Shown piece by piece: positions 1-13,672 of a stretch of DNA of 17,857 nt. This stretch comes from Gammaproteobacteria bacterium. Lineage in GTDB: Bacteria; Pseudomonadota; Gammaproteobacteria; Chromatiales; Chromatiaceae. Location of the stretch: contig JAGVUH010000516.1 of the NCBI GenBank assembly GCA_019136395.1, positions 1 through 17,857 of the forward strand, written 5' to 3'. How positions within the stretch are numbered: position 1 is the first letter of the stretch; every line of letters starts with the position of its first letter. Below the pieces are notes generated by a model. That model worked only from the letters and a program-made list of their open reading frames with translations, was not told where the DNA came from and searched no databases. The translations under genes were made by a program, and so were the position numbers.

Positions 1-807
1 CGCGGCGCGGCCCTGATCGCCGAGTGCCTGACCTTGCCCGACGAGGCCAGCCTGACCCAGGCGATCACCGGGGTGGTGGACCCCGACGCCCTACACCTGG
101 CCTGGACCGGCTTCCGCCAGGCGCTCGCGGCGCGGCTGCAAGCCGATTGGTGGACGACCTACGAGCAACTCGCGCCCCAGGGGCCTTACCGCTTTGACCC
201 CTCGGAGATGGGCCGCCGTGCCCTGCGCAATCGCTGTCTGGCGTACCTGGCGGAACTGGAGACTGAACCGGCCCGCGCCGCGGCCTGGTCTCAATTCCAG
301 GACGCGGACAACATGACCGACCAGTATGCCGCCCTCGCCGTCCTCACCGATCACGTGGGGCCGCAACGGGAGGCGGCCCTGGCCGCCTTTTACGATCAGT
401 GGCGGGCGGAGACGCTGGTCATCGACAAGTGGTTCGCCGTCCAAGCCGCCAGTCGCTTGCCGGACACCTTGACCCGGGTCGCGGAGCTGACCCGGCACCC
501 CGATTTCGACTATGCCAATCCCAACCGGGCCCTGAGTTTGCTGCGCACCTTCGGCGACAACCTGGTGCGCTTCCATGCGGCGGACGGTGGTGGCTATGAG
601 TTCCTGGGCGAGCAGATTGCCGTCATCGACGGCATCAACAGCACCACTTCCGCCTACCTGGCCCGGACCTTCGATTCCTGGCGGCGCTACGATGCCGGGC
701 GCCAGGCTCATTGCCAGCGGGTGCTGGAGGGCTTGCGGGAGCGGCCGGGCCTGTCCAGGGCCCTGCTGGAGGTGGTGACCAAGCTTTTGGAAGTAAGCCC
801 CGCCTGA
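1..807 (+). CDS. pepN: Aminopeptidase N, C-terminal part (5' truncated by window)
   Basis: The reading frame is open from base 1 to a TGA at 805-807, so about 268 C-terminal residues of a longer protein are present. They match the helical C-terminal domain of PepN, the M1-family zinc aminopeptidase that removes N-terminal residues from peptides in the cytoplasm. Recognisable stretches are AALIAECLTLPDEASL near the start, QYAALAVLTDH, EALAAFYDQWRAETLVIDKWF and NPNRALSLLRTFGDN, and an alpha-helical ARM-like composition throughout. The catalytic HExxH domain lies upstream of the window and cannot be checked. The TTG at 34 is internal, not a start. The gene converges on the response-regulator gene, whose end is about 105 bp away. 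The family call is confident; only integrity of the missing part is unknown. Confidence 0.93.
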   Translation, partial: RGAALIAECLTLPDEASLTQAITGVVDPDALHLAWTGFRQALAARLQADWWTTYEQLAPQGPYRFDPSEMGRRALRNRCLAYLAELETEPARAAAWSQFQDADNMTDQYAALAVLTDHVGPQREAALAAFYDQWRAETLVIDKWFAVQAASRLPDTLTRVAELTRHPDFDYANPNRALSLLRTFGDNLVRFHAADGGGYEFLGEQIAVIDGINSTTSAYLARTFDSWRRYDAGRQAHCQRVLEGLRERPGLSRALLEVVTKLLEVSPA

Positions 808-912: not shown

Positions 913-1572
913 TCACCGGTGCTTAAGTTGTACCCCAAAGCTAAAGCCGGCGGCGCGCTCGGTCTTGAGGGGCAGTTCCTGACCACTGACCGCCTGCCAG
1001 CGATGGCGCAGCCGGCTGACCATGGTGTTCAGGCGGCGCTCGTCGTAGTCAAACCAATTCTCGCCAAAGGCCTCCACCAGGGCGCGCCGGCTGACGACCT
1101 GGTCGGGCGCGGCGGACAGGCAAGTCAATAGGGTCAGCTCATGGGCATTGAGGTCCAGGCAATGACCCTCCGGATCGCTCAGTTGATGGCGCGCCCGGTC
1201 CAGGCACCAGCCCAGCCCCAAGCGCCGCAACAGGGCATCGACGAAGCCCGCCAGTTCCGGAAAGCGCACGGGCTTGACCAGGTACTGATCGGCGCCGCCA
1301 TAGAGCCCCGCCAGCTTGTCCTCGGCGCCGGCGCGGGCGGTGAGCAGGATGACCCCCACCCGTGGGTGCTCCCAGTGCAGCCGGATCGCCGCCTCGGTGC
1401 CGCTGCCGTCAGGGAGCATGATGTCGAGGATGGCCAGGTCGATGGTCGCCATCAGCGGCCAGAATTCCGCCAGGCACCCGGCCTGGCTGATGGTGTGACC
1501 GCGGTGGGCGAGAAACACCGCCAGTTCCTCGCGCAGGCCGGCCTCGTCTTCAAGCAGGGCGATACGGGCCAT
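913..1572 (-). CDS. OmpR/PhoB-family response regulator, last gene of the pump operon
   Basis: This 219-residue protein has the full two-domain layout. The N-terminal receiver domain (1-115) has acidic residues E8-D9, phosphoacceptor D50 in LAILDIMLPDG, T78 in LLTAR and K100 in YLVKP. The winged-helix DNA-binding domain (about 122-219) includes the NAHELTLLTCL opening, a recognition-helix stretch RRLNTMVSRLRHRW and the wing LKTERAAGFSF. The ATG at 1572 has an excellent Shine-Dalgarno GAGGAGG at 1582-1588, nine bases upstream. The permease stop is 18 bp upstream, so the gene is the distal member of the efflux operon. No histidine kinase is encoded in the operon, so the phosphate donor is unknown. 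Proteins of this family bind head-to-tail direct repeats about 10-11 bp apart, and exactly that kind of repeat occurs upstream of this operon and three other transcription units here. Autoregulation is therefore likely but inferred. Confidence 0.93.
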   Translation of the reverse strand: MARIALLEDEAGLREELAVFLAHRGHTISQAGCLAEFWPLMATIDLAILDIMLPDGSGTEAAIRLHWEHPRVGVILLTARAGAEDKLAGLYGGADQYLVKPVRFPELAGFVDALLRRLGLGWCLDRARHQLSDPEGHCLDLNAHELTLLTCLSAAPDQVVSRRALVEAFGENWFDYDERRLNTMVSRLRHRWQAVSGQELPLKTERAAGFSFGVQLKHR

Positions 1573-1590: not shown

Positions 1591-2799
1591 TCAATCCGCC
1601 CGCAGGGCCTGAATCGGGTCCAGCCGCGCTGCCTGGCGGGCGGGGTAGAAGCCGAAAAAGATGCCCACGGCACTGGCCACGCCCACGCCAAGCAGGATGG
1701 CATCCGGGGACAGCAGAAACGCCCACTGGGCGAGGTAGGCCGTCACCCAACTCGCCCCCACCCCCAACAGGATGCCGAACAGGCCGCCGATCAGGGACAG
1801 GATCACCGACTCGACCAGAAATTGCTGTTGGATGTCCCCTTGCCTGGCCCCCAGGGCGCGGCGCACGCCGATCTCCCGGCGGCGCTCGGTCACCGACACC
1901 AGCATGACGTTCATCACCCCGATACCGCCGACGATGAGGGAGATGCTGCCGATAGCCCCGGCGAGCAGGGTGAACATGCGCATCTGCTTCTCCATCTGGG
2001 CGATGATCTCCTCCGGGCTGCGCGCCCGCACCGGCTGGCGCCGCGCCTGGAAGTAGGCCTTCACCTGGGCCATGGCCTCGGCGTTGGTGTGGCCCGGTTT
2101 CACCCGCGCCAGGATCGTGCCGATCTCCGGCTGCTTTTGCAGCCGCGTCGCCTGCGGCAGGGGGATCAGCACGGACTGGTCTGGCTCCAGGGAGGCGAGG
2201 CTGTTGTAGCTGGCGGGGGCCAGCACGCCGATGACGGTATACAGGCCGTCGCCGACCCGCACCGGGGCGCCGAGGGGCTCCGTCACCCCCCGCGCCGCCA
2301 GTTGCCGGGCCAGATCGGCGCCGATGACCGCGTAACGGTTCCCCTCATCCAGGTCGCTCAGAAAGCGTCCTTGGGTGACCCGCAGCCGGGCCAGGGTCGG
2401 AAAGGCCTCGGTCACCCCCACCAGGCTGGCCCGTTCCAGGGGCTTGCCGCCCTGGCTGACGGTCTGGGACAGGGCGCTGATGCTGGGGGCGATGGCGACC
2501 AGGGCCGGCGCCGCCGCCAGCAGCCCGTTCAGGTCGGCGGGCTGGAGACCGCGCGGCGGGGCGCCCCCGCGGCCCCCGCCGCGGCCACCCCCACCGCTGA
2601 AGTCCTTGGTGATGGTGAAGAGGTCGGTACCCATCTCCTTGAACTGGCGCAGGGCCTCCTCCTTGACGATGGCGCTGACGCTGACCATGGCGATCACCGA
2701 ACCGATGCCGATGACGATGCCGATCAGGGCCAACAGGCTGCGCTGCTTGGCGGCGGCCAGGCTGGTGACGGCCTCGCTAAGGATGGCGGCGTGAATCAT
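1591..2799 (-). CDS. MacB-type ABC transporter permease (FtsX/MacB core domain)
   Basis: This 402-residue inner-membrane protein has the MacB/FtsX topology: one N-terminal transmembrane helix (about 21-42), a large periplasmic domain (about 43-274), then three C-terminal helices (about 275-300, 330-352, 366-386). The cytoplasmic motif VTERRREIGVRRALGA (303-318) is the conserved coupling region of MacB permeases, and the end ARLDPIQALR is typical. The ATPase is a separate protein, unlike E. coli MacB where the two are fused. I chose ATG 2799 because it overlaps the ATPase stop (ATGA, 2796-2799), which suggests translational coupling; an upstream in-frame start at 2841 would lie inside the ATPase. 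A Gly/Arg-rich stretch at residues 69-84, just after the first helix, is unusual. With the neighbouring ATPase, adaptor and outer-membrane protein it should form a mechanotransmission-type tripartite pump. The substrate is not evident. Confidence 0.93.
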   Translation of the reverse strand: MIHAAILSEAVTSLAAAKQRSLLALIGIVIGIGSVIAMVSVSAIVKEEALRQFKEMGTDLFTITKDFSGGGGRGGGRGGAPPRGLQPADLNGLLAAAPALVAIAPSISALSQTVSQGGKPLERASLVGVTEAFPTLARLRVTQGRFLSDLDEGNRYAVIGADLARQLAARGVTEPLGAPVRVGDGLYTVIGVLAPASYNSLASLEPDQSVLIPLPQATRLQKQPEIGTILARVKPGHTNAEAMAQVKAYFQARRQPVRARSPEEIIAQMEKQMRMFTLLAGAIGSISLIVGGIGVMNVMLVSVTERRREIGVRRALGARQGDIQQQFLVESVILSLIGGLFGILLGVGASWVTAYLAQWAFLLSPDAILLGVGVASAVGIFFGFYPARQAARLDPIQALRAD

Positions 2800-3461
2800 G
2801 GCACCAGCAGCCCGTCGCGCATGGTGACGACCCGGTCGCATTGGCGAGCGATGCCGGGGTCGTGGGTGATGATCACCACGGTGATGCGGTCATCGCGATT
2901 GAGTTGGCGGAAGAGGGTCATGATCTCCTGGCCGACGCGGGTGTCGAGGGCGCCGGTGGGCTCGTCGGCGAGGATCAGGGTTGGCTGGCCTACCAGGGCG
3001 CGGGCGATGGCCACCCGCTGCTGCTGGCCTCCGGACAGCTCGGGGGGCTTGTGGTGGGCGCGCTCGGCCATGCCCACCCGCTCCAGCATGGCCAGGCCCC
3101 GCTTTTCGGCATCCGGGGTAGGCTCGGGCCGGTACACCAGTGGCAGCAGGACGTTGGCCAGGGCGCTCAGGCGCGACAGCAACTGATATTGCTGAAAGAC
3201 GAAGCCGATGCGCCGGTTGCGAATCAGGGACAGGCGATCGTCATCGGCATATTCCACCCGGCTGCCATCCAGGTGGTATTCGCCGCTGCTCGGCCGGTCC
3301 AGGAGGCCGATGATATTCATCAGGGTCGATTTACCGCAGCCGGAGGTGCCGGTGATGGATACCAGCTCCCCGGGCTCAATGGTCAGGCTGATGCCCTTGA
3401 GGACCTCCACCGCGGTGGGGCCGACGCGGTAAACCTTGTGGATGTCGCGCAAGTCCAGCAT
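2796..3461 (-). CDS. ABC transporter ATP-binding protein (MacB/LolD type)
   Basis: This 221-residue ATPase of the MacB/LolD/FtsE class hydrolyses ATP to drive the adjacent permease. All motifs are present: Walker A GTSGCGKST (38-46), Q-loop around Q90, signature LSGGQQQR (142-149), Walker B LILADEP (162-168), D-loop GALD (170-173) and switch histidine H200. The length is that of a stand-alone nucleotide-binding subunit. ATG 3461 follows the adaptor stop by 3 bp, and the stop overlaps the permease start by 4 bp, so adaptor, ATPase and permease are translated as a coupled block. The combination with an HlyD-type adaptor and a TolC-like protein favours a MacAB-like efflux or export pump over lipoprotein release. 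Confidence 0.95.
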   Translation of the reverse strand: MLDLRDIHKVYRVGPTAVEVLKGISLTIEPGELVSITGTSGCGKSTLMNIIGLLDRPSSGEYHLDGSRVEYADDDRLSLIRNRRIGFVFQQYQLLSRLSALANVLLPLVYRPEPTPDAEKRGLAMLERVGMAERAHHKPPELSGGQQQRVAIARALVGQPTLILADEPTGALDTRVGQEIMTLFRQLNRDDRITVVIITHDPGIARQCDRVVTMRDGLLVP

Positions 3462-3464
3462 GGC

Positions 3465-5288
3465 TCAGCCGCCTGCGGGGGTGCGGGGCGGCGCCACCGC
3501 CTCGATGAGGTCCCCCGCCGCCAGCCCGCTCAGGATCTCAACCTCGTTCTGGGTGGTGAAGCCGGTCTGGACTGCCACCGCCTCGACGGCGGCCCCGGGC
3601 GCCGGGCGGCGATAGACGAAGCGCTTGCCACCCTCGGCGCGGACCGCCGCCAGGGGTACCAGCAGGGCCGCGGGATTGTCGTGGATGAGGATCTCGACGT
3701 TGGCCGACATGCCCACCAGGATACGCTCACGCAGGTCGTCGGGGATGGTCTCGACCGCGACCCGGGCGGTAAAGGCCGGGGCCCCCTGGTTCTGCTCCTC
3801 GGCGTGGGGCGCGATGGCCAGCACCTCACCCACCAGTTGGATACCGGGGAAGGCGTCCAGGGTGATGCGCGCCCCCTGACCGGGCTGGACACGGGTGACG
3901 TCGATCTCATCGAGCTTGACGTCGAAGGCCAGGCCCGTGAGATCGCCAATGGCCAGCAGGACCTGGTCTTTCTGGTAGGTGGCCCCTTCCTCCAGGGCCT
4001 TGCCACTGTCCTGGCCCTCCTTGCCGCCGCTGGGCGGTTTCATCACCAGCCCCGCCACCGGGGCCTTGACCTGGGCGTTGGCCAGTTCCTCTTCCGCCAG
4101 GCGCGCCTTGGTCTCGGCATTTTCCAGTTCCATGCGCGCCACCTCCAGGTTCTCGGCGTCGCCCTTCTTCACGACCGCCGCCAGCTCTTCCTCGGCATTG
4201 GTGAAGTCCAGTTCCTGATTGGCCAGTTGCTGCCGGGCCTGATCGTGCTCGGTGGCGGGGATGATGCCCTTGTCCAGCAGGCGCTGGGTTTCGGCGAAGG
4301 TCTCCCGTTGTTTTTCCAGGCTCATCCGCGCGCGGATCAGGGAGCGATTGGCCCGGGCCACCTCGCTGCCCGCCTCCCAGTTCGCGACTTCCAGGTAATG
4401 GGTATGGGCCTTGATGGCGGCGGCCTTGGCCTCGCGGTACTTGATGGCGGCCTCGCTGTCGTCCATGGTCAGCAACACCTGGCCCGCGCCGACCCGGTCG
4501 CCATAGTGGACCTGCAGCTGGCCGAGCTTGCCGCCAAAGGGCGCGCCGAGATTGATCTGATGCAACGGCAGGACCTTGCCGCTCAGGGCTAGGCCCTGGC
4601 TATGGTGCCGGGGGCTCAGGGTGAGGGTGGTGGCCCCTGGCGCGCCGCCACTGGCCGCCTGGTCGCCCGGCGGCGGCGCTAGCGGACCGGGGGTGGAGCC
4701 CTGCCAGGCATAGAGGCCGACGCCGAGGAAGAGCAGGATGGTGAAGGCGGTAGCGGTGACGCGGATGACCTGGACCTTTTTCAGGGCCTGGCCCAGTTGC
4801 TGGTTGCGCTCCTCGGTCTGGCGGTAGGCGGCGAGCAACTCCTCATGCTTGAGGCGCAATTCCGACGTCAGGCGCTCCTCCGCCTCCCGCGCCGCCAACA
4901 GGGCGGTGATGTCGGTGAAGACGGCGATGACGCCGATCCGCCGTCCCTCGGCGCTGGTCAGAAAGCTGGTGGTCAGGTCCAGGGTAAGCTGCCGCTCGCC
5001 CTGGCGAAAAGGCACCACCCGGTCGTGAGTCACCTGGGCGTCATAGACGGCATCGAGGATGGTCTGGTTGAAGGCGTCGTTGTCCTGGGCCAGGAAGGTC
5101 TCGGCGAAGGTGCCGGCCAGGGTCGCCTCCCGGTCGAGGCCGAGCATGGCGGCGGCGGCGGCGTTGAACTCGAGGATGCGCCCGGACAGGTCGATGACCA
5201 GGACGCCATCCGCCATGTTGGCGAGGATGCGCCCGGTGACCGCCTGGTGCGGGGGCGCGGCGCCCGGATGGGGTTCAGCGTTCGACAA
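3465..5288 (-). CDS. PAS domain fused to HlyD/MacA-type periplasmic adaptor
   Basis: This 607-residue fusion has an unusual layout. Residues about 20-130 form a PAS domain (ADGVLVIDLSGRILEFNAAA through IGVIAVFTDITAL). Residues 131-172 are a heptad-like charged segment that looks like a coiled coil. Residues 176-195 are a hydrophobic transmembrane helix. After a Pro/Gly linker, 220-607 is a membrane fusion protein: lipoyl half-motifs (GAPFGGKLGQLQVHYGDRV and NAQVKAPVAGLVMKP), a long alpha-hairpin (about 281-403) and beta-barrel/membrane-proximal domains. PAS is predicted cytoplasmic and the adaptor periplasmic, linking TolC-like protein and permease. The start is taken as TTG 5288, preceded by GGGGGGTGA and overlapping the outer-membrane gene's end by 14 bp. 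The next ATG (residue 25) would cut into PAS. No LOV-type cysteine motif is seen and the ligand is unknown. Ordinary MacA-type adaptors have only a short cytoplasmic N-terminus. Confidence 0.9.
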   Translation of the reverse strand: MSNAEPHPGAAPPHQAVTGRILANMADGVLVIDLSGRILEFNAAAAAMLGLDREATLAGTFAETFLAQDNDAFNQTILDAVYDAQVTHDRVVPFRQGERQLTLDLTTSFLTSAEGRRIGVIAVFTDITALLAAREAEERLTSELRLKHEELLAAYRQTEERNQQLGQALKKVQVIRVTATAFTILLFLGVGLYAWQGSTPGPLAPPPGDQAASGGAPGATTLTLSPRHHSQGLALSGKVLPLHQINLGAPFGGKLGQLQVHYGDRVGAGQVLLTMDDSEAAIKYREAKAAAIKAHTHYLEVANWEAGSEVARANRSLIRARMSLEKQRETFAETQRLLDKGIIPATEHDQARQQLANQELDFTNAEEELAAVVKKGDAENLEVARMELENAETKARLAEEELANAQVKAPVAGLVMKPPSGGKEGQDSGKALEEGATYQKDQVLLAIGDLTGLAFDVKLDEIDVTRVQPGQGARITLDAFPGIQLVGEVLAIAPHAEEQNQGAPAFTARVAVETIPDDLRERILVGMSANVEILIHDNPAALLVPLAAVRAEGGKRFVYRRPAPGAAVEAVAVQTGFTTQNEVEILSGLAAGDLIEAVAPPRTPAGG

Positions 5289-7071
5289 GGGTCACCCCCC
5301 AGCGGTCGAGGACGATGCCCAGGGTGTTTTCCAGGGCCGTCAAGTCGTTGAGATAACTGATGATGGCGTTGACCTCGGCGTTCTGGGCGTTGACCAGGGC
5401 GTTCTGGTAACTCAGCAACTCGAAGTTGGAGGTGCGGCCGGCCTTGAGCTTCTCGGTCTGCACCTCGACGTTTTTCTGCGCCAGCTCCCGCGCTTGGGTG
5501 TTGAGCTCGATCTGCCGGCGGCTGATCTCGGCCTTGCGCAGGGCGTTGATCACTTCAACCTCGATGTCCAGGCGCTGCTGGGCCAGGTCGTTCTCGAACT
5601 TGTCGAGATTGATGCGCGCGGCGACGGCGCCCTGTTGGATCGCCGGATCGTTCAAGGGGATGGTGAGCATCAAACCGACGCTCCAGTTGTCCTGGGGGCC
5701 CTGGCTGTCCAGTTGACCCAGCCCCTCGGTCTGGTTGTAGGAGCCGGTGAGGTCCAGAGACCAGAGGGTACTGTTCTCGGCGACCAGGAGGTTGAGCTTG
5801 GCGATTTCGTAACTCAGCAAGGCGCTGAGGTAGTCGGGGCGGTTCTCGAAGGCCAGGCGCAGGGCCTCCTGGCGATCCTGGGGCACGGGGGGGATTGTCG
5901 TCTCGGCCAGCGCTCGGGGCTGGCTGGCGGGGTCGAGGTCAAGGAGTCTGATCAGGGTGAGGCGGGCGGCATCCAGGCTGTTTTGCGACTGCAAGAGGCT
6001 GACCTCGCGGCTGGCGACGTCGGCCTCGGTCTGGTAGATATCGACGGCGGCCATGCGCCCGGCGGCGATGCGTTCCTGGTTGATGGCCAGGGTCTGGCGG
6101 CTGCGCTCCAGGGATTGCTCGCTGATGGCCAGGGACTCGTTGCTCTGCACCAAGCTACGGAAGGCACTGATGGTCAAGACGACGGTGCTCATCAGGGTCT
6201 GCTTGAGGCGCAGGATATTGGCCTGCTCATTGAATTGGGCCATGCGCACCGAGGCGGTGTTGACGTCGCGGCCGGAGCCCTTCAGCAGGGGTTGGGTGAA
6301 GTTGACCGTCCAGCCACGGGCACTGCCCCAGTTGCCGAGGGTGAAGAGGGCCTGGCTGGTGCCCAGGAAGGTGATGCGGGCGCCGGTGGGCAGGAGTTGG
6401 GTCGCGGTGCCGGCAATGTTGCCAGTGCGTTGGCCATCCTGGCGATTGCCACCCTGGGCACCGACCTCGGTGGTGAGGAGGAACTTGGGGGAGAACTTGC
6501 TCTCGGCGACGTAGAGGTCGTACTTCTGCACCACACGATCGAGGTAGGCGTTCTTGACCCGGGTATTGTCGACCACGGCGATGCGGATGGCCGCTTCCAG
6601 GGTCAGGTCTTGGGGAGCGGGCGTGGCGGCGGCGGTTGGCTTGGCCCCGGACGGAGCGGCCTGGGTGGCCGTGGCGGGCTGGTTCTTGGCGGGCTTGGCC
6701 TGGGCCGGCTTAGCCTGGGCCGGAATATCGTTGGCAGCCTTGCCTTGCGTATGCTTGGCGTTGGCAGGCTTGCCTTGGGTAGGTTTGCCGTTGGCCGCCT
6801 TGCCTTGGGTAGGTTTGCCGATGCCAGGCTTGCCCTTGTCCGCCGGGCTGGATACCACCGCGCTGGGGGTAGCCAAGCCCATGGCGGACCGGTTCTCGTC
6901 AGGCAGGCGCGCGGCGGCGGCGCCGCTGGCGGATGGGGGCGCGGCCGGCGGCTGAGCGAGCCGCGGGGGCACGCCAGGTTCCTCGCCCTGATCGGCGCCA
7001 TGAGCCAGGGGTAAGGGCGCGCTGAGTAGCACGCTTAGTACGGAGAGGAGCCTAAGGCCCCGCCAAATCAA
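5275..7071 (-). CDS. TolC-family outer-membrane efflux protein with repetitive N-terminal extension
   Basis: This protein of about 598 residues forms the outer-membrane channel of the tripartite pump. A Sec signal peptide (1-25, ending AHG before AD) is followed by an unusual low-complexity, Lys/Ala/Pro/Gln-rich extension (26-153), then the outer membrane efflux region (about 154-598) with two OEP repeats. Recognisable pieces include LTLEAAIRIAV, SVRMAQFNEQANILRLKQTL, ENRPDYLSALLSYEIAKLNL, WSVGLMLTIPL and NFELLSYQNALVNAQN. Typical TolC homologs are about 430-500 residues and lack the extension. The start is TTG 7071; upstream the frame has no ATG before an in-frame stop at 7107-7105. It is the first gene of the operon, about 120 nt downstream of the start site predicted from the regulated promoter at 7199-7242. 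Its stop overlaps the adaptor start. Confidence 0.92.
   Translation of the reverse strand: MIWRGLRLLSVLSVLLSAPLPLAHGADQGEEPGVPPRLAQPPAAPPSASGAAAARLPDENRSAMGLATPSAVVSSPADKGKPGIGKPTQGKAANGKPTQGKPANAKHTQGKAANDIPAQAKPAQAKPAKNQPATATQAAPSGAKPTAAATPAPQDLTLEAAIRIAVVDNTRVKNAYLDRVVQKYDLYVAESKFSPKFLLTTEVGAQGGNRQDGQRTGNIAGTATQLLPTGARITFLGTSQALFTLGNWGSARGWTVNFTQPLLKGSGRDVNTASVRMAQFNEQANILRLKQTLMSTVVLTISAFRSLVQSNESLAISEQSLERSRQTLAINQERIAAGRMAAVDIYQTEADVASREVSLLQSQNSLDAARLTLIRLLDLDPASQPRALAETTIPPVPQDRQEALRLAFENRPDYLSALLSYEIAKLNLLVAENSTLWSLDLTGSYNQTEGLGQLDSQGPQDNWSVGLMLTIPLNDPAIQQGAVAARINLDKFENDLAQQRLDIEVEVINALRKAEISRRQIELNTQARELAQKNVEVQTEKLKAGRTSNFELLSYQNALVNAQNAEVNAIISYLNDLTALENTLGIVLDRWGVTLVER
6693..6722 (-). 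repeat. 15-bp tandem duplication in the same linker
   Basis: Two adjacent 15-bp units (6693-6707 and 6708-6722) differ at one base and encode the AQAKP repeat at about residues 118-127 of the outer-membrane protein. They continue the basic low-complexity linker encoded by the 30-bp repeat next to them. Confidence 0.75.
6731..6835 (-). repeat. 30-bp tandem repeat coding for a 10-residue repeat
   Basis: Three full 30-bp units (6731-6760, 6761-6790, 6791-6820) and half of a fourth (6821-6835) lie in the tolC-like gene. They encode decapeptides of the type KAANGKPTQG (residues about 79-115). The multiple of three preserves the frame, so copy number could vary without disrupting the gene. Confidence 0.85.
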
Positions 7072-7198: not shown

Positions 7199-7242
7199 AT
7201 GCTAAGCGATACGCGACCGTCGGAACCTTACCGAATATTACC
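7199..7242 (-). promoter_or_regulatory. Regulated promoter of the pump operon (element copy 1)
   Basis: On the minus strand the 19-nt box GGTAATATTCGGTAAGGTT (7242-7224) is a direct repeat of GGTAAnnTT with a 10-bp period. After exactly 19 nt comes TAGCAT (7204-7199), a -10-like hexamer. The predicted transcription start is near 7192, about 120 nt before the TTG start of the outer-membrane gene. There is no good -35 hexamer, so activation by a factor bound to the repeat is likely. The operon's own OmpR-family regulator is the obvious candidate. Confidence 0.75.
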
Positions 7243-7244
7243 GG

Positions 7245-7460
7245 ACTTGTTGCGTTTAAGGGACAGCGAATCTGACTCAGACGTGGCGGGATGCCGCATA
7301 TGCTCGCTCAGCACCCGCGTCTAATCCCGGCCCCGGGCATTGCTCCATCACCCGGTATCAGGTAGCAGCCCCCAATGGTAAGCAAGCGGACGCCCATCAC
7401 GGCTTCGCTGAGCAATCATTAGCGGCCTATGTCGACGATCCGTGGTGTATATCCAAAGCA
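7245..7460. other. Non-coding stretch beside promoter copy 1
   Basis: The whole gap between the pump operon and the first small secreted gene is 7072-7460. It holds the promoter at 7199-7242 and the leader of the pump operon (7072-7192). In the remaining 216 bp I see no gene with credible codon use. A GC-rich near-palindrome CCCGGCCCCGGG lies at about 7326-7337, but its loop is too small for a terminator and no T-run follows. Confidence 0.4.
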
Positions 7461-7853
7461 TCACTCCCTACAGAATGAATACTGTTCAGTACTGCCTTTT
7501 GGCATATCGCATATCTTCATGTTGAAATTACCGCAGGCAACTGCCGCCCAGCATACTCCCCATTCAGGTCCGTACCAGGTACCATACATATCGGTCCCCA
7601 TCACATTCACATGTACATCAGGAGATGCCACTCCTCGCGGACAATCAGCCCCCGTATCAAATGTGTGTGTGGTGTACGGCTCCATCGACACCTTTATGTT
7701 GGGATTCGTTACCGCAAGGATGCACAGGCCATAATAAACTTGGACATTGAGCCTTACTCCCAATGTATTTGTCACCGTTACCTGCCAGGCATTGGCATTT
7801 AGCGGCGCATGGAGCAGTAGGGTGAACAATACGGTAGTCAGTAGCGGTTTCAT
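7461..7853 (-). CDS. Small Sec-exported protein, paralog of the 8393-8800 product
   Basis: This 130-residue protein has a clear signal peptide (1-22, MKPLLTTVLF... ending ANA before W). The mature part of about 108 residues starts with a beta-strand-rich segment (WQVTVTNTLGVRLNVQVYYG) and carries six cysteines (44, 71, 101, 107, 115, 128). Its C-terminal half is closely related to the 8393-8800 protein: GTDMYGTWY (86-94), then CGNFNMKICDMPKGS and YSFC, with cysteine spacing 107-115-128 identical to 112-120-133 in the paralog. ATG 7853 is preceded by AAAAGG. It is the last of three same-strand small genes probably read from the promoter at 8929-8972. I do not recognise the family and assign no function. 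Its base composition is AT-richer than the neighbours. Confidence 0.82.
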   Translation of the reverse strand: MKPLLTTVLFTLLLHAPLNANAWQVTVTNTLGVRLNVQVYYGLCILAVTNPNIKVSMEPYTTHTFDTGADCPRGVASPDVHVNVMGTDMYGTWYGPEWGVCWAAVACGNFNMKICDMPKGSTEQYSFCRE

Positions 7854-7924
7854 GATCGCCTTTTGTTGTTAACGGAGGATGATAGTTACACAAACAAAAA
7901 GAACGGGCATGGACATTGCCGCGC

Positions 7925-8311
7925 TCACTTCCGCAACTTGGGTGTCTCACGTATGTTCGTAAAACAGTTGCCTCCTGAGTCCTCATGAATATATCCTTTG
8001 ACGTCATAGCACGCCGGCAAAGCTGTTCCTTCTATAAAATACGTGTAATTAATGTTGCCGGATATCGTGTACGATAACGGACAGATCCCGCCAGTTATTT
8101 CGCATGATTTCGCAGTATTAGCTGGGACGGATACAGTGCAATCCACCTGATTCCAAAAAAGGTGGCCACCATAAACATCGATTTTGGTTTCCTTGGAACA
8201 TTTGTTTTCAATCGTGACGGTATAAGCAAGGATGGGTGGCGCATTGCAAGCCAGCGGGAGTAGGATGCAGGCCATGCGCAGGCACTTGTTCTGTAGATCA
8301 TATTTAATCAT
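7925..8311 (-). CDS. Small Sec-exported cysteine-containing protein
   Basis: This 128-residue protein has a hydrophobic signal sequence (about 13-29, ending PPILA before YTVTIEN). The mature part has six cysteines (38, 58, 70, 77, 101, 116) and many Thr, Ile and Tyr residues, suggesting a disulfide-stabilised beta fold. The opening YTVTIENKC resembles the openings of the two flanking paralogs (WQVTVTN, YEVVVKN), but the GTDM-GTWY and KIC-MP motifs are missing, so it is at most a distant relative. ATG 8311 is used; ATG at residue 13 would leave a shorter signal peptide and is possible. It lies 81 bp after one small gene and 71 bp before the next on the same strand, probably in one transcript. 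Function unknown; AT-richer than the surroundings. Confidence 0.75.
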   Translation of the reverse strand: MIKYDLQNKCLRMACILLPLACNAPPILAYTVTIENKCSKETKIDVYGGHLFWNQVDCTVSVPANTAKSCEITGGICPLSYTISGNINYTYFIEGTALPACYDVKGYIHEDSGGNCFTNIRETPKLRK

Positions 8312-8392
8312 GCGGTGCGACCCTTAAATAACACGATCATGCTGCGAGGAAGTTTCAGAATTGTGATTACGACAGAATCAGTTTGCAGGGCT

Positions 8393-8800
8393 TTAATATG
8401 TACAGAAGGAATATTCCTTCGAGCTACCTTCCGGCATTTTACAAATTTTAAAATTTACATCACCGCAACGTGGAAAGCCCGCTGGGGGAAAATCATACCA
8501 AGTGCCAAACATATCAGTACCTTGAAATTTGCGCCCTGACTTATCTGTCCCATCAAGACCGTTTGGACATAAGATAAGTGTATTAAAAGATCCCGAGCTA
8601 TATTTATTAATTTCAAGTGGATGAGCACCACCTGGACCATAGTAAAGTGTTACCACTGCGGTAAAATCGAAAGGGTTCTTCACCACCACTTCGTAGGCAT
8701 GGGCTGGCAGCGGAACCTGGAGGAATGTCGCGAACAGCAGGGCGGTCGCGCCGGTTTTGCGAAGCATACCAAACGAATTTGAACTCAAGTGAGTTTTCAT
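8393..8800 (-). CDS. Small Sec-exported protein, first gene of the secreted cluster
   Basis: This 135-residue protein has a signal peptide (1-35, basic start, hydrophobic 17-31, cleavage after AHA before YEVVV). The mature protein has four cysteines (78, 112, 120, 133), a YYGPGG turn near 53-58, GTDMFGTWY (94-102) and CGDVNFKICKMPEGS near the end. These features are shared with the 7461-7853 product, so the two are paralogs by duplication. ATG 8800 has a good Shine-Dalgarno AGGAG. The gene lies about 120 nt downstream of the start site predicted from the promoter at 8929-8972, and is probably the first of three co-transcribed genes. I recognise no named family. Sharing a promoter type with the efflux pump suggests a product that is transported, sensed or made under the same condition; this is inference. 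Confidence 0.82.
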   Translation of the reverse strand: MKTHLSSNSFGMLRKTGATALLFATFLQVPLPAHAYEVVVKNPFDFTAVVTLYYGPGGAHPLEINKYSSGSFNTLILCPNGLDGTDKSGRKFQGTDMFGTWYDFPPAGFPRCGDVNFKICKMPEGSSKEYSFCTY

Positions 8801-8928
8801 ATCATAGCTCCTGGCTGGCAGCAGCCTTGGCTAGGCTCTTTATTTTGAAATCCTGACCCGCTGTACAGACCGATAGTGTCTGCAACGGTATCGATGACTT
8901 GGTCCACCCAGGTCTGGCGCATGATCCT

Positions 8929-8972
8929 ATGATAGGCGAGACAAGGCGGTCGCAACCTTTCCGAATATTACA
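8929..8972 (-). promoter_or_regulatory. Regulated promoter of the small secreted cluster (element copy 2)
   Basis: On the minus strand TGTAATATTCGGAAAGGTT (8972-8954) matches the box upstream of the pump operon at 17 of 19 positions. Exactly 19 nt later is TATCAT (8934-8929), a good -10 hexamer. The predicted start is near 8922, about 120 nt before ATG 8800. The rest of the 8801-9104 gap shows no gene. Confidence 0.75.
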
Positions 8973-9104
8973 GGGCACTTTTCCTCCGTCCCCCCGCTTC
9001 TGTTAGTACCATCCCCCCGATACTTTTAGACAGGGCATCCTGGCACAGACATACCGGCGCCTTGAGGGACAACGACAGGCGGACGCGCGTGGGACAGGGG
9101 GTTG

Positions 9105-9416
9105 TCAGTCACAGTAGCCTTTGCAGGTACCGTTGCCATCAAAACATTTAGCGATGCCGCCAATGTCGGCCCAGTAGACGCAGCCCCAACATGTATTGCC
9201 GCAGCTCGAATACTTGTTGTTACAGTCCCTGGCGGGTTGCTGGGAGTCAGCGGGGTAGCCAAAAGAGTAACTAACCGTGACCGTGCCCTTACTGCCTCCT
9301 TCCCCGTTTTGATGACAATTCAGTTCAGCGGAGCCAGCACTGAAGGCTCTGCCAGGCAGGATGCCGAGGCTCACTGTCACCACGAGGGTCAGGATCGATG
9401 CGTGGAATTTGTTCAT
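9105..9416 (-). CDS. Small Sec-exported cysteine-rich protein (eight cysteines)
   Basis: This 103-residue precursor has a signal peptide (1-27, MNKFHASILT... cleavage after AFSA likely) and a mature part of about 76 residues. All eight cysteines are in the mature part (34, 65, 72, 76, 79, 91, 98, 102), clustered in CGNTCWGC and at the C-terminus, enough for four disulfides. There is a glycine-rich segment and a Tyr/Ser strand (VTVSYSFGY) before the cysteine cluster. No family is recognised; it looks like a small disulfide-rich extracytoplasmic protein, which could be a toxin-like, metal-binding or surface peptide. ATG 9416 is preceded by GGAG. It is monocistronic by position and lies about 124 nt downstream of the start predicted from the promoter at 9547-9590, so it shares regulation with the pump operon. 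Confidence 0.75.
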   Translation of the reverse strand: MNKFHASILTLVVTVSLGILPGRAFSAGSAELNCHQNGEGGSKGTVTVSYSFGYPADSQQPARDCNNKYSSCGNTCWGCVYWADIGGIAKCFDGNGTCKGYCD

Positions 9417-9546
9417 CGCGAGTGCTCCGTCAGATAGGCAATAAGCCAGCCAATGTCATCCCGGCATCACCCTCGGCGTGCAAAAACCCTGGCTGTCACC
9501 GGACGACGGTTGAGGTGCAGGTCTCTCCCCTGTTCACCAGGACGGC

Positions 9547-9590
9547 ATGATAATCGCGACCCAGCGGCCCAAACCTTACCGAATATTACC
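9547..9590 (-). promoter_or_regulatory. Regulated promoter of the cysteine-rich secreted gene (element copy 3)
   Basis: On the minus strand the box GGTAATATTCGGTAAGGTT (9590-9572) is identical to that of the pump operon, and TATCAT (9552-9547) follows exactly 19 nt later. The predicted start is near 9540, about 124 nt upstream of ATG 9416. The 19-nt spacer differs in sequence from the other copies, so the conserved spacing is not due to recent duplication of the whole region. Confidence 0.77.
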
Positions 9591-9651
9591 GGGCGGTTGG
9601 CGCCAAACGTTTGTGTCCCGCTGGCCAGGTGCACACCCTGTCACCGGTCGA

Positions 9652-11223
9652 TCAAGCGTCCCCCGGGTCGAGGGGGGATCTTCCCCCGGCCAGGGCCCGG
9701 ATACCCTGCCCTGCCAGCAACCCCAAGAAGCCACAACCCACCAGCGTCAGGAACACATCACCCTGCACGGCATAAAAGGACAGTCCGGGACGCCAGCGGA
9801 CAGTGGCGGAGGTGATCATGGCCTGCCCCGGTGGGGTCAAGGTCCCGGCACTGATGGCGCCGCTGGGGTGGATGAAGGCCCCAGACCCGGTATTGGTGAC
9901 CCGCACCAGGGGGATACGGTATTCCACGGCCCTGAACAGGAGCAGCGCCAGGTGCAATCGACCGGCGGCGGGGTCGCCAAACCAGGCATCGTCGGCCATG
10001 GACACCAGCAGTTGACCACCCTGGGCGAGCCCCTGGCGGACGGTTTCGGGAAACAGCCCTTCGTAACAGAGCGACGGGATGATCTTGGCACCCTCCCCTA
10101 TCGTCAGCACCACCCCCGCGTCACCGGGCTGGTAATGCTGCACCCCCGGGAACCAATCGCGCAGCCAGGGCAGCCGCTCCTCCAGCGGCAGGTATTCGGC
10201 AAAGGGGAGCAGTTTGCGTTTGCGGTACTTCGGGCCACAGTTCCCGTCGCCCTGTACCAACAAGGCCGCGTTGTGGTGGCGGTTCTGTGCGTCACCCTCC
10301 TCCACGCAGGCGAACAGCAACGCCTTGCCCAGCCGCCGGACGAAGTCGCCCTGGCCCTTGCCGGCCTCGCAGGCGCAGGACAGGGACGGGGGTACCTCGG
10401 GCCAAACCAGCAACTCGGTTTCCGGGTGTCGGGCCACCGCTGCCCTCATCAGGTCCGCGGCCGCGGTCAACGCCTCCGTCCCGCGCGGGCTCAGATAATC
10501 CAAGGTGACCGGCAAGTTGGGCTGGATGGCCGTGAGGGTCAGCGATGGAACGCCATGCCCGTCAGTCGCCGCTGGGGTGAAGGCCTCCAGGCGCAGCCAA
10601 CCATAGGTCAGGATGCCAGCAAACAGCGCCGTCAGGGCCAAGGTTTCCGGCAGGATGGGCCGGCCCGCGCGGTGCAGGTAAATCGCTTGTTCGACCAGGG
10701 CGTTGACCAGGACCAGCAGGCAAAACACCAGGGGCACGCCGCCCAGGTCGGCCGTCTGAATCAAGAGCGGGTGCGTAAAGAGGGCATTGGCCAGACTCCC
10801 CGGAAAGAGGTTGGGGAACAGGTAGACCAGGGCCGTCAGCGCCAAGGCATGGGCTAGCGGCGTCCAACGGCCCCGGTTGCGGCTTAACCCCTGATACAGG
10901 CCGAAGAGCGCGTAAGGCAGGGCGTGGTAGAGGGAAAAAAGCAGGGCGACCAGCCAGGCGCCGGGGTCCGCAAGCAGTAACCATTGCTGGGCGCCGACTT
11001 TCACCCACCAGGTCAGGAGTAGCCAGATCAACCCGCCGAAGGTCAGTCCCAGGGTCAGCCCACGCCAACCCTTGGTCCCCCGCAAGGCCATGAACCATGG
11101 CACCAACGCCAGAAACGCCAATGGCGCCAGCGCGTCGCTCTGAAAACTAAGCCAGACGATCAGGGCCGCGAGACAGACCAGCGCCATCCGCGGGGTGGAA
11201 TGAAAATGTTCCATCATGATCAT
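9652..11223 (-). CDS. lnt: Apolipoprotein N-acyltransferase (Lnt) family protein
   Basis: This protein of about 523 residues belongs to the Lnt family, which transfers an acyl chain from phospholipid to the N-terminal cysteine of lipoproteins at the periplasmic face of the inner membrane. The N-terminal half has several hydrophobic helices and the C-terminal half is a nitrilase domain. The catalytic triad is visible: Glu in LLVWPEVPPS (about 276), Lys in KYRKRKLLPFAEY (about 337) and Cys in IPSLCYEGLFP (about 386). DDAWFGD and a C-terminal membrane helix are also typical. I chose ATG 11223 because GGGAGAAG (11233-11240) lies nine bases upstream; ATG 11256 has no such site. It is transcribed toward the secreted-protein cluster. 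Whether it is the housekeeping Lnt or a second copy cannot be told from this window. Confidence 0.88.
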   Translation of the reverse strand: MIMMEHFHSTPRMALVCLAALIVWLSFQSDALAPLAFLALVPWFMALRGTKGWRGLTLGLTFGGLIWLLLTWWVKVGAQQWLLLADPGAWLVALLFSLYHALPYALFGLYQGLSRNRGRWTPLAHALALTALVYLFPNLFPGSLANALFTHPLLIQTADLGGVPLVFCLLVLVNALVEQAIYLHRAGRPILPETLALTALFAGILTYGWLRLEAFTPAATDGHGVPSLTLTAIQPNLPVTLDYLSPRGTEALTAAADLMRAAVARHPETELLVWPEVPPSLSCACEAGKGQGDFVRRLGKALLFACVEEGDAQNRHHNAALLVQGDGNCGPKYRKRKLLPFAEYLPLEERLPWLRDWFPGVQHYQPGDAGVVLTIGEGAKIIPSLCYEGLFPETVRQGLAQGGQLLVSMADDAWFGDPAAGRLHLALLLFRAVEYRIPLVRVTNTGSGAFIHPSGAISAGTLTPPGQAMITSATVRWRPGLSFYAVQGDVFLTLVGCGFLGLLAGQGIRALAGGRSPLDPGDA

Positions 11224-11713
11224 GGCCGGGCGCTTCTCCCTGGTGTCGCACCTCATGGCCGAGTGGGGTGCCGAGACGGTTAAAGCCCGCTTCCAGGGCC
11301 TGATCAGGGCCGACCTGATCGACCAACTCCTGGAGGGCTTCTCGGCCTATCGTGAGGTCGGCGCCGATGCGCGACGTCCCCCGCTGCCGGCGGTGTCCGG
11401 GGGCCAGCGGGTGACGGTCGACCGGGAACGATTCCAGGACTTGCTGACCACCCTGCTCGAAAACCTGGTGGGCACCGGCACCACCGACCTCCGGCTGGGT
11501 GTGGAAAGCGGGATGGAGAGCGACCACCCCACCGTGGTGATCACCATCCTGGCGCGCAACCGGTCGCCAGTAGCCAGGGCCCCGGGGCCCGCCCCGCGTC
11601 CTTACCTCCAGTGGCTGGCGGAACAGGCGGGCGTCCGTGTGACCTCCGCCGCGGCGCCGGCCGCCGGGCTCCATGGCTATCGCATCCGTTGCCGGCCGGT
11701 CGCGGCCGCATGA
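11216..11713 (+). CDS. Degenerate histidine-kinase-like ATPase fragment
   Basis: This 165-residue frame has GC-rich third codon positions and appears genuinely coding. Residues 64-84 (QRVTVDRERFQDLLTTLLENL) resemble the start of an HATPase_c domain, including the first asparagine of the N-box. The usual catalytic asparagine of NLxxNA is replaced, and no DxGxG or GxGxG nucleotide motif follows. The C-terminus (YLQWLAEQAG to GLHGYRIRCRP) resembles the last helix and strand of kinase ATPase domains. Upstream residues (ADLIDQLLEGFSAYREV) could be the end of a dimerisation helix, but no phosphorylatable HE/D motif is present. The start overlaps the head-to-head lnt start by 8 bp, and the end converges on the polyferredoxin gene. 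It is probably a remnant or pseudo-kinase; the function is not assignable. Confidence 0.5.
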   Translation: MIMAGRFSLVSHLMAEWGAETVKARFQGLIRADLIDQLLEGFSAYREVGADARRPPLPAVSGGQRVTVDRERFQDLLTTLLENLVGTGTTDLRLGVESGMESDHPTVVITILARNRSPVARAPGPAPRPYLQWLAEQAGVRVTSAAAPAAGLHGYRIRCRPVAAA

Positions 11714-11801
11714 CCCTCTTCCCTTTGGAAAACCAAGACCTGCCTCGGTGATCCAATCCGACCAATTCGATGAGCACGTCCTGGGGCGGACCTGATCCTT
11801 T

Positions 11802-13574
11802 TCAGAGGCTGTGCCGCAGCGAGAAGCTGCCTTTGTTGTCCGACATGCGGGCGTGATAGGCGCCTCCTCGCCGGCGTCGTCCAGTTGGGGTTCCCCGCGA
11901 TAATCGGGCAGGGCCAGGGGTTTGCCGGTGTGGGAGATGGTCATGACCCCCTTGTTCTTGCGCAGGATGGCGAGAACGGTCACCTTGCTGCCGGCAGGCA
12001 GGGCGCCCCGCATAAAGCTGATGACCTCCTGGGCGGCGTTGGCCAGGGAGACGGCGGCGGGCACCCGCCAGCGCGCCTGGACCGCCTGCTCGACCAGCCA
12101 GCTCAGCACCTCCCCCTGGGCCCCCGGGTCGCCGTCGCGGATGTTCCAGGTCTTGGTGGCGCTGAAGTCCTCCTTCTCCACGGTGGCCGGGCGCTCGCGC
12201 CTGAGAATCAGGGCCAGCGCCAGCAGGGCGGCATTGAGGCCGATGAACAACCGCCCCTTGGGACGCGTCTGGCATCAGTGGCCAGGTGGCGTGCAGATTC
12301 CAGCCCGCGAAGAGCAGATAGAAGGTGCCAAAGGCGAGGACAAAGCGGGTGCGGTCAATGCCCTGGGCCCGGACCGCGGTCCAGCCCAGCAGGGCCAAGG
12401 CCAGGACAAGCCCGAGCAGGATGCAGAGGGCGTTGGCATAGGCCGTCCAGTCCGCGCCCCAGAGACCCGGCAGGGCCAGCCCCGGGGTCTCCAGGACCCG
12501 CGCCAGGGGCCCGAGCAGGTGGCCGCCGTCCTGCCAGAATTCCGCCCCGACATGACCCAGGTGGCTGAGCAGCAGCAGAGGGATCAGGGGACGGGCGCCC
12601 AGGGCCAGCCAGGCATCCGGGGACATGCGCCCCGGGTTGGCGCTGGCGGCCAGGCGCGACAGCGCCCGCAGCAGCCACCAGGTACCCCCCAAGGCCGCCG
12701 CCATGAGCAGGGTCTTGATCAGGACCGGGTAGGCGGTCGCCTCCAGCCAGCCCTCCAGGGGGAGACGGCCGCTTTCCAGGGCGTTGAGCAGGCTGATCAG
12801 GCCCGCCAGGAAGGGGATCAGCCACAACACCACGGGCGCCATGGGGGACTCCGCCGTCAGTTCCGCCGCAGGCGCCTCGTAGCGCAGTTGCAGGGAGCCA
12901 TGCTGGCAGCGCTTGACGCAACCGCCGCAGAGATTGCACTGGGTTACCGATTCCATGGCGAAGGGCGACAGGTGCATGGGACAACCGGCATAACCAGCAT
13001 CGGGGACCATGCAGTCCTTGGTGGTGCAGTCGGCGCAGATGTCCTCCCGGGGGCGCACCTTGAACAGGGCGGCCCGGCTATAGACCTGGCTCAGGCCGCC
13101 GATCGGACAGACATAGCGGCACCAGACGCGGCCCTGGAAAAAGAGGCTGAAGACGATGGCCCCGGTGAGGATGCTGAGGAGCAGGATGGCGGTCTGGCGG
13201 GGCGAATCCAGAATACCCCGGGTCTCCTCCAGCCAGGACAGGAGGATGAAGGCGATCAGGATCAGCCAGCCGCCCTGTTCCTTGAGAAAGTCCGGTACCG
13301 CCCGGCGCAGACCGACCAGGCGCCGGACGCCGTCACTCACCTTGGAGAAGGGACAGATCCCGCACCAGAACCGCCCGGCGACAAGAAATAGCACGCAGAG
13401 CAACGGCCACCACACCAGCCAGACCAGCAGATTGCCGGGATTATCCTTGTCCGCCGGGCCAAACAGCAGGTAGCCGACCACGGGGAGGAAGAACAGCACC
13501 GACAGCCATTGCAGCAGGCCGGGATACCAGGGCCTGCGCATCAGTCGGGTAAGCACGGCGGCGAAAGGGGCCAT
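11802..13574 (-). CDS. NapH-like membrane polyferredoxin with ATPase-like C-terminus; two apparent frameshifts
   Basis: From ATG 13574 (good AGAAAGGAA upstream; an in-frame start at 13613 is less likely) the protein has several membrane helices. It has two NapH/NosR-type motifs, CGICP (71-75) and CRYVCP (152-157), a cysteine-rich loop (180-199) and a 4Fe-4S motif CNLCGGCVKRC (213-223). Such proteins move electrons across or at the inner membrane. More helices follow to about residue 440. From about 12262 down to about 11865 the open frame encodes an Arg/Gly/Pro-rich shadow, while the neighbouring frame reads sensibly (LFIGLNAALLALALIL, then a soluble domain with SLANAAQEVI and TISHTGKPLALP). 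Near 11860 the original frame becomes sensible again and ends MSDNKGSFSLRHSL. I infer two compensating indels. The restored tail resembles an RsbW/HATPase-like domain lacking its catalytic Asn. It is divergent from the SpoIIE phosphatase gene. Confidence 0.78.
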   Translation of the reverse strand: MAPFAAVLTRLMRRPWYPGLLQWLSVLFFLPVVGYLLFGPADKDNPGNLLVWLVWWPLLCVLFLVAGRFWCGICPFSKVSDGVRRLVGLRRAVPDFLKEQGGWLILIAFILLSWLEETRGILDSPRQTAILLLSILTGAIVFSLFFQGRVWCRYVCPIGGLSQVYSRAALFKVRPREDICADCTTKDCMVPDAGYAGCPMHLSPFAMESVTQCNLCGGCVKRCQHGSLQLRYEAPAAELTAESPMAPVVLWLIPFLAGLISLLNALESGRLPLEGWLEATAYPVLIKTLLMAAALGGTWWLLRALSRLAASANPGRMSPDAWLALGARPLIPLLLLSHLGHVGAEFWQDGGHLLGPLARVLETPGLALPGLWGADWTAYANALCILLGLVLALALLGWTAVRAQGIDRTRFVLAFGTFYLLFAGWNLHATWPLMPDASQGAVVHRPQCRPAGAGPDSQARAPGHRGEGGLQRHQDLEHPRRRPGGPGGGAELAGRAGGPGALAGARRRLPGQRRPGGHQLYAGRPACRQQGDRSRHPAQEQGGHDHLPHRQTPGPARLSRGTPTGRRRRGGAYHARMSDNKGSFSLRHSL

Positions 13575-13628
13575 GATGATTTCCTTTCTGGCGGGAGGGG
13601 TGGGCAGGGTCATGAGAGGCGGCCTGCT

Positions 13629-13672
13629 ATGTTAGCCGACTGGCGACAGCCGGAACCTTACCAAATGTTACC
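13629..13672 (-). promoter_or_regulatory. Regulated promoter of the polyferredoxin gene (element copy 4)
   Basis: On the minus strand GGTAACATTTGGTAAGGTT (13672-13654) matches the pump-operon box at 17 of 19 positions. TAACAT (13634-13629) follows at exactly 19 nt. The predicted start is near 13622, about 48 nt before ATG 13574. It lies in the divergent gap with the SpoIIE phosphatase gene and might also influence that gene, but the -10 hexamer is only on the minus-strand side. Confidence 0.72.

Follow-up and report, generated by a model that had tools for sequence, protein, structure and literature searches.

In the stretch of DNA analysed here, 17,857 nt of contig JAGVUH010000516.1 from a Chromatiaceae bacterium (hereafter the window), a 19-nt box made of two tandem repeats occurs four times, each time followed by a -10-like hexamer at one fixed distance. 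It is very probable that one sensor-regulator pair governs these four promoter switches of a purple-sulfur-type bacterium, in what is a new and well-supported case of a well-known type of gene regulation. Judged from sequence comparison, the box is most likely the operator of an autoregulated two-component system composed of a 7TMR-DISM kinase and the OmpR/PhoB-family response regulator encoded at 913-1572, and this system would activate promoters that carry no normal -35 element. The boxes and their hexamers are located as follows.

7224..7242, minus strand: box W1, GGTAATATTCGGTAAGGTT, exact match, also found by alignment
7199..7204, minus strand: TAGCAT, -10-like hexamer of W1, 19 nt past the box
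8954..8972, minus strand: box W2, TGTAATATTCGGAAAGGTT, two mismatches
8929..8934, minus strand: TATCAT, -10-like hexamer of W2, by alignment
9572..9590, minus strand: box W3, GGTAATATTCGGTAAGGTT, exact match
9547..9552, minus strand: TATCAT, -10-like hexamer of W3, by alignment
13654..13672, minus strand: box W4, GGTAACATTTGGTAAGGTT, two mismatches
13629..13634, minus strand: TAACAT, -10-like hexamer of W4, by alignment

All four boxes were found on the minus strand where an earlier note on this DNA had placed them, two of them exact and two with two changes, and the hexamers it had read (TAGCAT, TATCAT, TATCAT and TAACAT) were seen exactly 19 nt past the box in 4/4 cases. W1 to W4 are the sole matches to the box in the window at up to three mismatches. 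No match was observed in 200 shuffles of the window, and a position matrix of the window returned no fifth box, the runner-up scoring 12.1 versus 34-37 for the boxes. The same note had put every box in a gap between genes and ahead of the start of a transcription unit, and both statements held. Gaps account for 1690 of the 17857 nt (9.5%) according to the gene calls of this analysis, a share with which the placement of 4/4 boxes in gaps has a chance of about 8e-5, and the units that follow the boxes are the pump operon, the secreted cluster, the cysteine-rich protein and the polyferredoxin. The element, its spacing, its orientation and its location in gaps are direct observations.

Relatives of the box were searched for in 210 genomes of the Thiobaca trueperi family, with the genome carrying the Thiobaca trueperi locus as the centre of the set; these relatives are draft genomes of unknown completeness. 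A composite pattern (box, N19, TANCAT, at most three mismatches) was present in 2/210 genomes, four times in G061 (0, 1, 2 and 2 mismatches) and once in G062 (3 mismatches), and its reversed control matched three of the 210 genomes once each. The G061 matches on contigs C286 and C736 are one site, the contig ends overlapping by 99 nt. An order-level search covered the identical 210 genomes and again returned G061 and G062 only (reversed control 2/210), and three genomes outside the 210, taken from a contig scan with the regulator alignment whose generic patterns mostly brought up remote regulators, gave no match to the composite pattern. The strict box without the hexamer was found in three genomes, G011, G061 and G062, and its reversed control in none of the 210. 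With a box pattern derived from the window only and at most one mismatch, six genomes were recovered, namely these three together with G048, G063 and G096, which have a single 1-mismatch match each, and the control gave 1/210. None of these three extra matches has TAnnnT at 19 nt, and long open frames cover two of them. The earlier note had asked for a comparison of the gaps in related genomes, and there the box, the 19-nt spacing and the -10 were found to recur in G061 and G062. Its description of a local regulon is to be kept for the four units of the window but not beyond it, as boxes in relatives are located on several contigs ahead of other genes.

In G061, the C286 box is followed by a small secreted-protein gene, the kinase gene and a PepN-type gene with an export-like N-terminus. 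Contig C296 of the same genome has two boxes, one ahead of the gene for a secreted papain-like C1 peptidase, the other pointing off the contig end. In G062, the box of contig C90 lies ahead of an outer-membrane barrel, and the NapH-like gene is divergent with its start 300 nt from the box. The common theme of the targets would be exported and envelope proteins plus the two-component system itself. One readable operator would tie proteins of unknown function to a sensor, a pump and a protease. For a group represented here mainly by draft genomes, this offers a test that is precise and inexpensive, and the operator may serve as a tag for finding more members.

The anatomy of the promoter was examined on eight counted instances, four from the window, three from G061 and one from G062; the G011 box, for which the contig ends 17 nt past the box, and five weak G061/G062 matches were left out. 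In all eight, the box consists of two 9-mers 10 bp apart in which 5-7/9 bases are identical between the repeats, and the hexamer located exactly 19 nt downstream begins with TA and ends in T. Operators of the OmpR/PhoB family are characterized by direct repeats that recur every 10-11 bp, and the box is of this form. The spacers had been described as equal in length and different in sequence. The length of 19 nt is confirmed, but the sequence is partly constrained, with G at position 17 in 8/8 instances and T at position 15 in 7/8. In the same way, the reported absence of a normal -35 stands for the usual spacing, no hexamer fitting at 16-18 nt in the eight instances, but has to be qualified by a TTGCGA-like hexamer that overlaps the last TT of the box in several instances at a short spacing of 15 nt from the -10. 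This hexamer agrees with the -35 consensus TTGACA at 4/6 positions or more in 4/8 instances. Such an arrangement, with a site over the -35, a -10 and no good -35 at 16-18 nt, would fit an activator-dependent sigma-70 promoter of the class II type. Beyond the 44 bp of box, spacer and hexamer no alignment between copies was seen by eye, and the copies are therefore not a long duplication. A conserved 5' leader length (127, 128 and 130 nt for W1-W3) was considered as a mark of duplication and dropped, other leaders being of about 54-104 nt.

Regulator 913-1572 scores above the Pfam cut-off for both Response_reg and Trans_reg_C, and D9, D50 and K100 of its phospho-acceptor region are invariant in 28/28 aligned sequences. 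Among its named relatives, the best are one of an uncultured Thiocystis (78%) and one of a Chromatiaceae metagenome-assembled genome (61%). The kinase encoded on G061 C286 contains the domains 7TMR-DISMED2, 7TMR-DISM_7TM, HisKA and HATPase_c. Among the 210 genomes, G011 (72%) and G062 (68%) alone have a close orthologue of it, and identity drops to 55% at the next match. The genomes with this clade-A kinase are the very genomes with the strict box, the same 3/210. G011 and G062 each have, in convergent orientation to the kinase gene, a gene for a regulator that is 77.5% and 68% identical, respectively, to that of the window, and the G011 box shares a 5.4-kb contig with both genes. Trees support the clade-A kinases at 100/99 and the clade-A regulators at 88/80, with G119 as sister in both. 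Moreover, the clade-A regulators (8 of 25 rows) have RR[LI]NT in the recognition helix, where the N is replaced by D, E or Y in the remaining 17.

This co-occurrence of the box with one clade was directly observed. With the window-only pattern, 3/3 genomes with a clade-A kinase carry the box versus 3/207 others (hypergeometric probability about 1e-5, relatedness being ignored). Two of the four genomes in the genus of G061 have kinase and box and the other two have neither a clade-A kinase nor a strict box; in the genus of G011, one of seven genomes has kinase and box and six have neither. The chance of such a co-occurrence within these 11 genomes is 1 in 165. It is patchy within genera (2/4 and 1/7), and relatedness is therefore not its whole explanation. 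Operator and regulator that are jointly present or absent within genera would make a neat case from nature of a regulon that moves or disappears as a whole. G063, which has no clade-A system, shows no box upstream of its NapH-like orthologue (76%). The box stands ahead of the kinase operon on G061 C286 and ahead of the regulator operon in the window, and the system would therefore be autoregulated; an operator upstream of both operons was observed across two genomes, not in a single one. By synteny with G061, the kinase gene of the bacterium studied here is predicted to lie left of PepN, outside the window. The idea that an OmpR/PhoB-type regulon is probably run by 913-1572, put forward in the earlier note, gains support from the co-occurrence of box and clade-A kinase in 3/210 genomes.

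Several observations weigh against this assignment. The strict-box pattern was shaped in part on the instances of the relatives. A looser box search, at up to three mismatches, adds five weaker matches in G061 and G062 (2-3 mismatches) that were not counted and none of which has TAnnnT at 19 nt, and its reversed control gave 2 matches in G061 and 5 in G062 versus 6 and 4 real ones. G011 and G062 have one strong box each, and that of G011 is cut by the contig end in such a way that its -10 is unreadable. The sister system of G119 has no such box. G061 yielded the kinase only, its clade-A regulator not being found, and the kinase match of G062 spans only residues 207-697 of 706. Finally, the link with the polyferredoxin changes direction, the nearby G062 box pointing to the outer-membrane barrel.

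Another OmpR/PhoB-type regulator, for example a CpxR-like one of envelope stress, might bind the box and have 913-1572 as a mere target. Several OmpR-type regulators are indeed encoded in these genomes, but the confinement of the strict box to the three clade-A genomes and its patchiness within genera are unexpected for a widespread regulator. In addition, G061 and G062 have no box within the 20-kb stretches that surround their second, related system. We consider this explanation unlikely. The fixed distance of the -10-like hexamer and the partly conserved spacer (G at 17, T at 15) would also suit the promoter of an alternative sigma factor, in which the box is an extended -35 region that no regulator binds. 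However, a tandem repeat of 19 bp and a 10-bp period exceeds the length of a sigma -35 element, and the distribution of the element follows that of a two-component system whose own genes lie under it, which makes this explanation highly improbable. A duplicated or mobile sequence devoid of regulatory role, of which the boxes would be copies, is hardly credible: four relative contigs, representing three sites, do break off no more than a few dozen nt from a box, which is a frequent effect of repeats, and a degraded PepN fragment adjoins one G061 box, but only box, spacing and hexamer are kept and the boxes point at a gene start wherever one is readable.

If the box is the operator of the two-component system, a mechanism may be proposed as follows. 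The two 9-bp repeats (GGTAAnnTT, at a distance of 10 bp) would be occupied by two phosphorylated regulator subunits arranged head to tail. The -35 position would be overlapped by the downstream repeat, so that the box would be centred near -41; with a start 7 nt past the hexamer it would span about -50 to -32. The sigma-70 RNA polymerase would then be recruited to the TAnnnT -10 located exactly 19 nt downstream, and each box promoter would start one transcription unit. In the window these units would be the MacAB/TolC-like pump operon that ends in the regulator gene, the three small secreted proteins, the cysteine-rich protein and the NapH-like protein, and in relatives they would include the secreted protease, the outer-membrane barrel and the kinase operon. 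We infer from the DNA the binding, its dependence on phosphorylation, activation rather than repression, the start sites and the signal. A wider and rather doubtful proposal is that of a sensing-and-secretion module spreading patchily among Chromatiaceae-type bacteria. In it, the 7TMR-DISM sensor and its regulator would switch on a private set of exported proteins (small beta-sandwich and cysteine-rich ones), along with a secreted protease and a MacAB/TolC-like pump of its own, the adaptor of which has a cytoplasmic PAS sensor. The pump might export the small proteins from the periplasm so that they act on neighbours, and regulator, kinase and boxes would be gained and lost together.

Regarding known systems, a receiver, a winged-helix domain and an operator of two tandem repeats are common to this system and the OmpR/PhoB family, including PhoB with its pho box and RstA with its RstA box. 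Regulators of this family are described as binding tandem sites as dimers, PhoB and PmrA as binding head to tail, and the RstA box as TACA-N6-TACA (PMC4117788), which has the same 10-bp period as the window box. The half-site GGTAAnnTT of the latter differs from both the pho box and the RstA box. The CpxR motif, given as GTAAA-N5-6-GTAAA in another study (PMC9600279), shares with the window box the half-site GTAA and the 10-bp period, but the boxes read GTAA[TC]-N5-G[TA]AAG and the fifth base differs. Regulator 913-1572 scored under the cut-off of all 25 NCBIfam models listed out of 54 matched; among those listed, CreB reached 99 bits versus 273. It fell short of the PhoB equivalog TIGR02154 (92.4 bits versus a cut-off of 296.2) and of the CpxR equivalog (64.8 bits versus 341). 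Targets of the Cpx response include envelope and export proteins, as do those of the window, but the kinase of the relatives is of the 7TMR-DISM type. RetS, LadS and SagS form a group of 7TMR-DISM sensor kinases, with which the relatives' kinase has 7TMR-DISMED2, 7TMR-DISM_7TM, HisKA and HATPase_c in common; here, the kinase gene adjoins an OmpR-type regulator gene. In a literature search that left subscription papers mostly outside, no regulon with this element was found. No paper was found that combines at least two of three overlapping pieces of the box among the matches listed, nor one joining Chromatiaceae with a regulon, a two-component system and a binding site, nor one joining 7TMR-DISM, OmpR and promoter.

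The genes of the window that bear on the regulon are listed below.

5275..7071, minus strand: TolC-like outer-membrane efflux protein, first gene past W1 (Pfam OEP; TIGR01844 below cut-off)
3465..5288, minus strand: PAS domain fused to an HlyD/RND-type adaptor (Pfam PAS and HlyD_3; TIGR01730 at 127.2 bits versus a cut-off of 94.9)
2796..3461, minus strand: ABC transporter ATPase (Pfam ABC_tran)
1591..2841, minus strand: MacB-like permease (Pfam MacB_PCD and FtsX)
913..1572, minus strand: OmpR/PhoB-family response regulator, last gene of the W1 operon and proposed binder of the box (Pfam Response_reg and Trans_reg_C; clade A in the tree)
8393..8800, minus strand: sec3, small protein with a signal-peptide-like N-terminus, first gene past W2 (predicted beta-sandwich)
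7925..8311, minus strand: sec2, small protein with a signal-peptide-like N-terminus (no Pfam match)
7461..7853, minus strand: sec1, small protein with a signal-peptide-like N-terminus (paralogue of sec3, 37.6% identity over 125 aa)
9105..9416, minus strand: cysteine-rich protein with a signal-peptide-like N-terminus, past W3 (one relative found)
11802..13574, minus strand: NapH-like polyferredoxin membrane protein, past W4 (Pfam Fer4_5; NapH models below cut-off)
1..807, plus strand: PepN-type aminopeptidase, C-terminal part, its gene convergent with that of the regulator (Pfam DUF3458_C, residues from 34)

The W1 operon runs from the TolC-like gene through the PAS-adaptor, ABC ATPase and MacB-like permease genes to that of regulator 913-1572, and its genes overlap or sit at most 18 nt apart. 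In the pump adaptor 3465-5288, the PAS domain is N-terminal and located ahead of the membrane helix, an unusual fusion by which the exporter could sense a cytoplasmic signal. The small proteins and the cysteine-rich protein are presumably secreted, on the reading of their N-termini. Sec1 and sec3 belong to a little-known protein family with conserved cysteines, and sec3 is modelled as a small beta-sandwich. A search of 5.8 billion proteins retrieved only 7 relatives of sec3 and one of the cysteine-rich protein 9105-9416. The fold search with sec3 gave one match below 0.001 (2mca, 15% identity) and otherwise generic beta-sandwiches, some of them in pore-forming toxins at E >0.01; no function was drawn from it.

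Compared with the G062 copy, the C-terminal part of the NapH-like protein 11802-13574 shifts to another frame and is back in the original one shortly before the end, and the G062 copy has a frame change at another place. These changes may be real or may be assembly errors. A gene for a Cache-HAMP-SpoIIE phosphatase (13751-15595) is divergent from the NapH-like gene, and a 51% relative of it adjoins the clade-A kinase in G011. When repeats of other sequence with a 10-bp period and a -10 were looked for beside the second, related system, no convincing diverged box emerged. What did come up in G011 was a degenerate box, AGTCATATTCGGTAATATT, at L131:5177-5195, followed by N19 and TAGATT ahead of SpoIIE-kinase genes, and it was not counted.

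The four relative contigs that stop within a few dozen nt of a box are L086, L087, L088 and L131, of which L087 and L088 hold the same site, suggesting assembly branching at these sites. In G061, the degraded PepN-type C-terminal fragment is located just upstream of a box (L086:1970-2053) and is 82% identical to the PepN of the window over 28 aa, hinting at a rearrangement at the locus. Finally, a MASE3-PAS-GGDEF-type gene directly precedes the clade-A regulator gene in G062. A relative of it (65-86% identity in two stretches) was found at the end of G061 C736, the pair of genes being at L088:5560-8217 and L130:997-4470, and the missing G061 regulator may therefore lie just past that contig.

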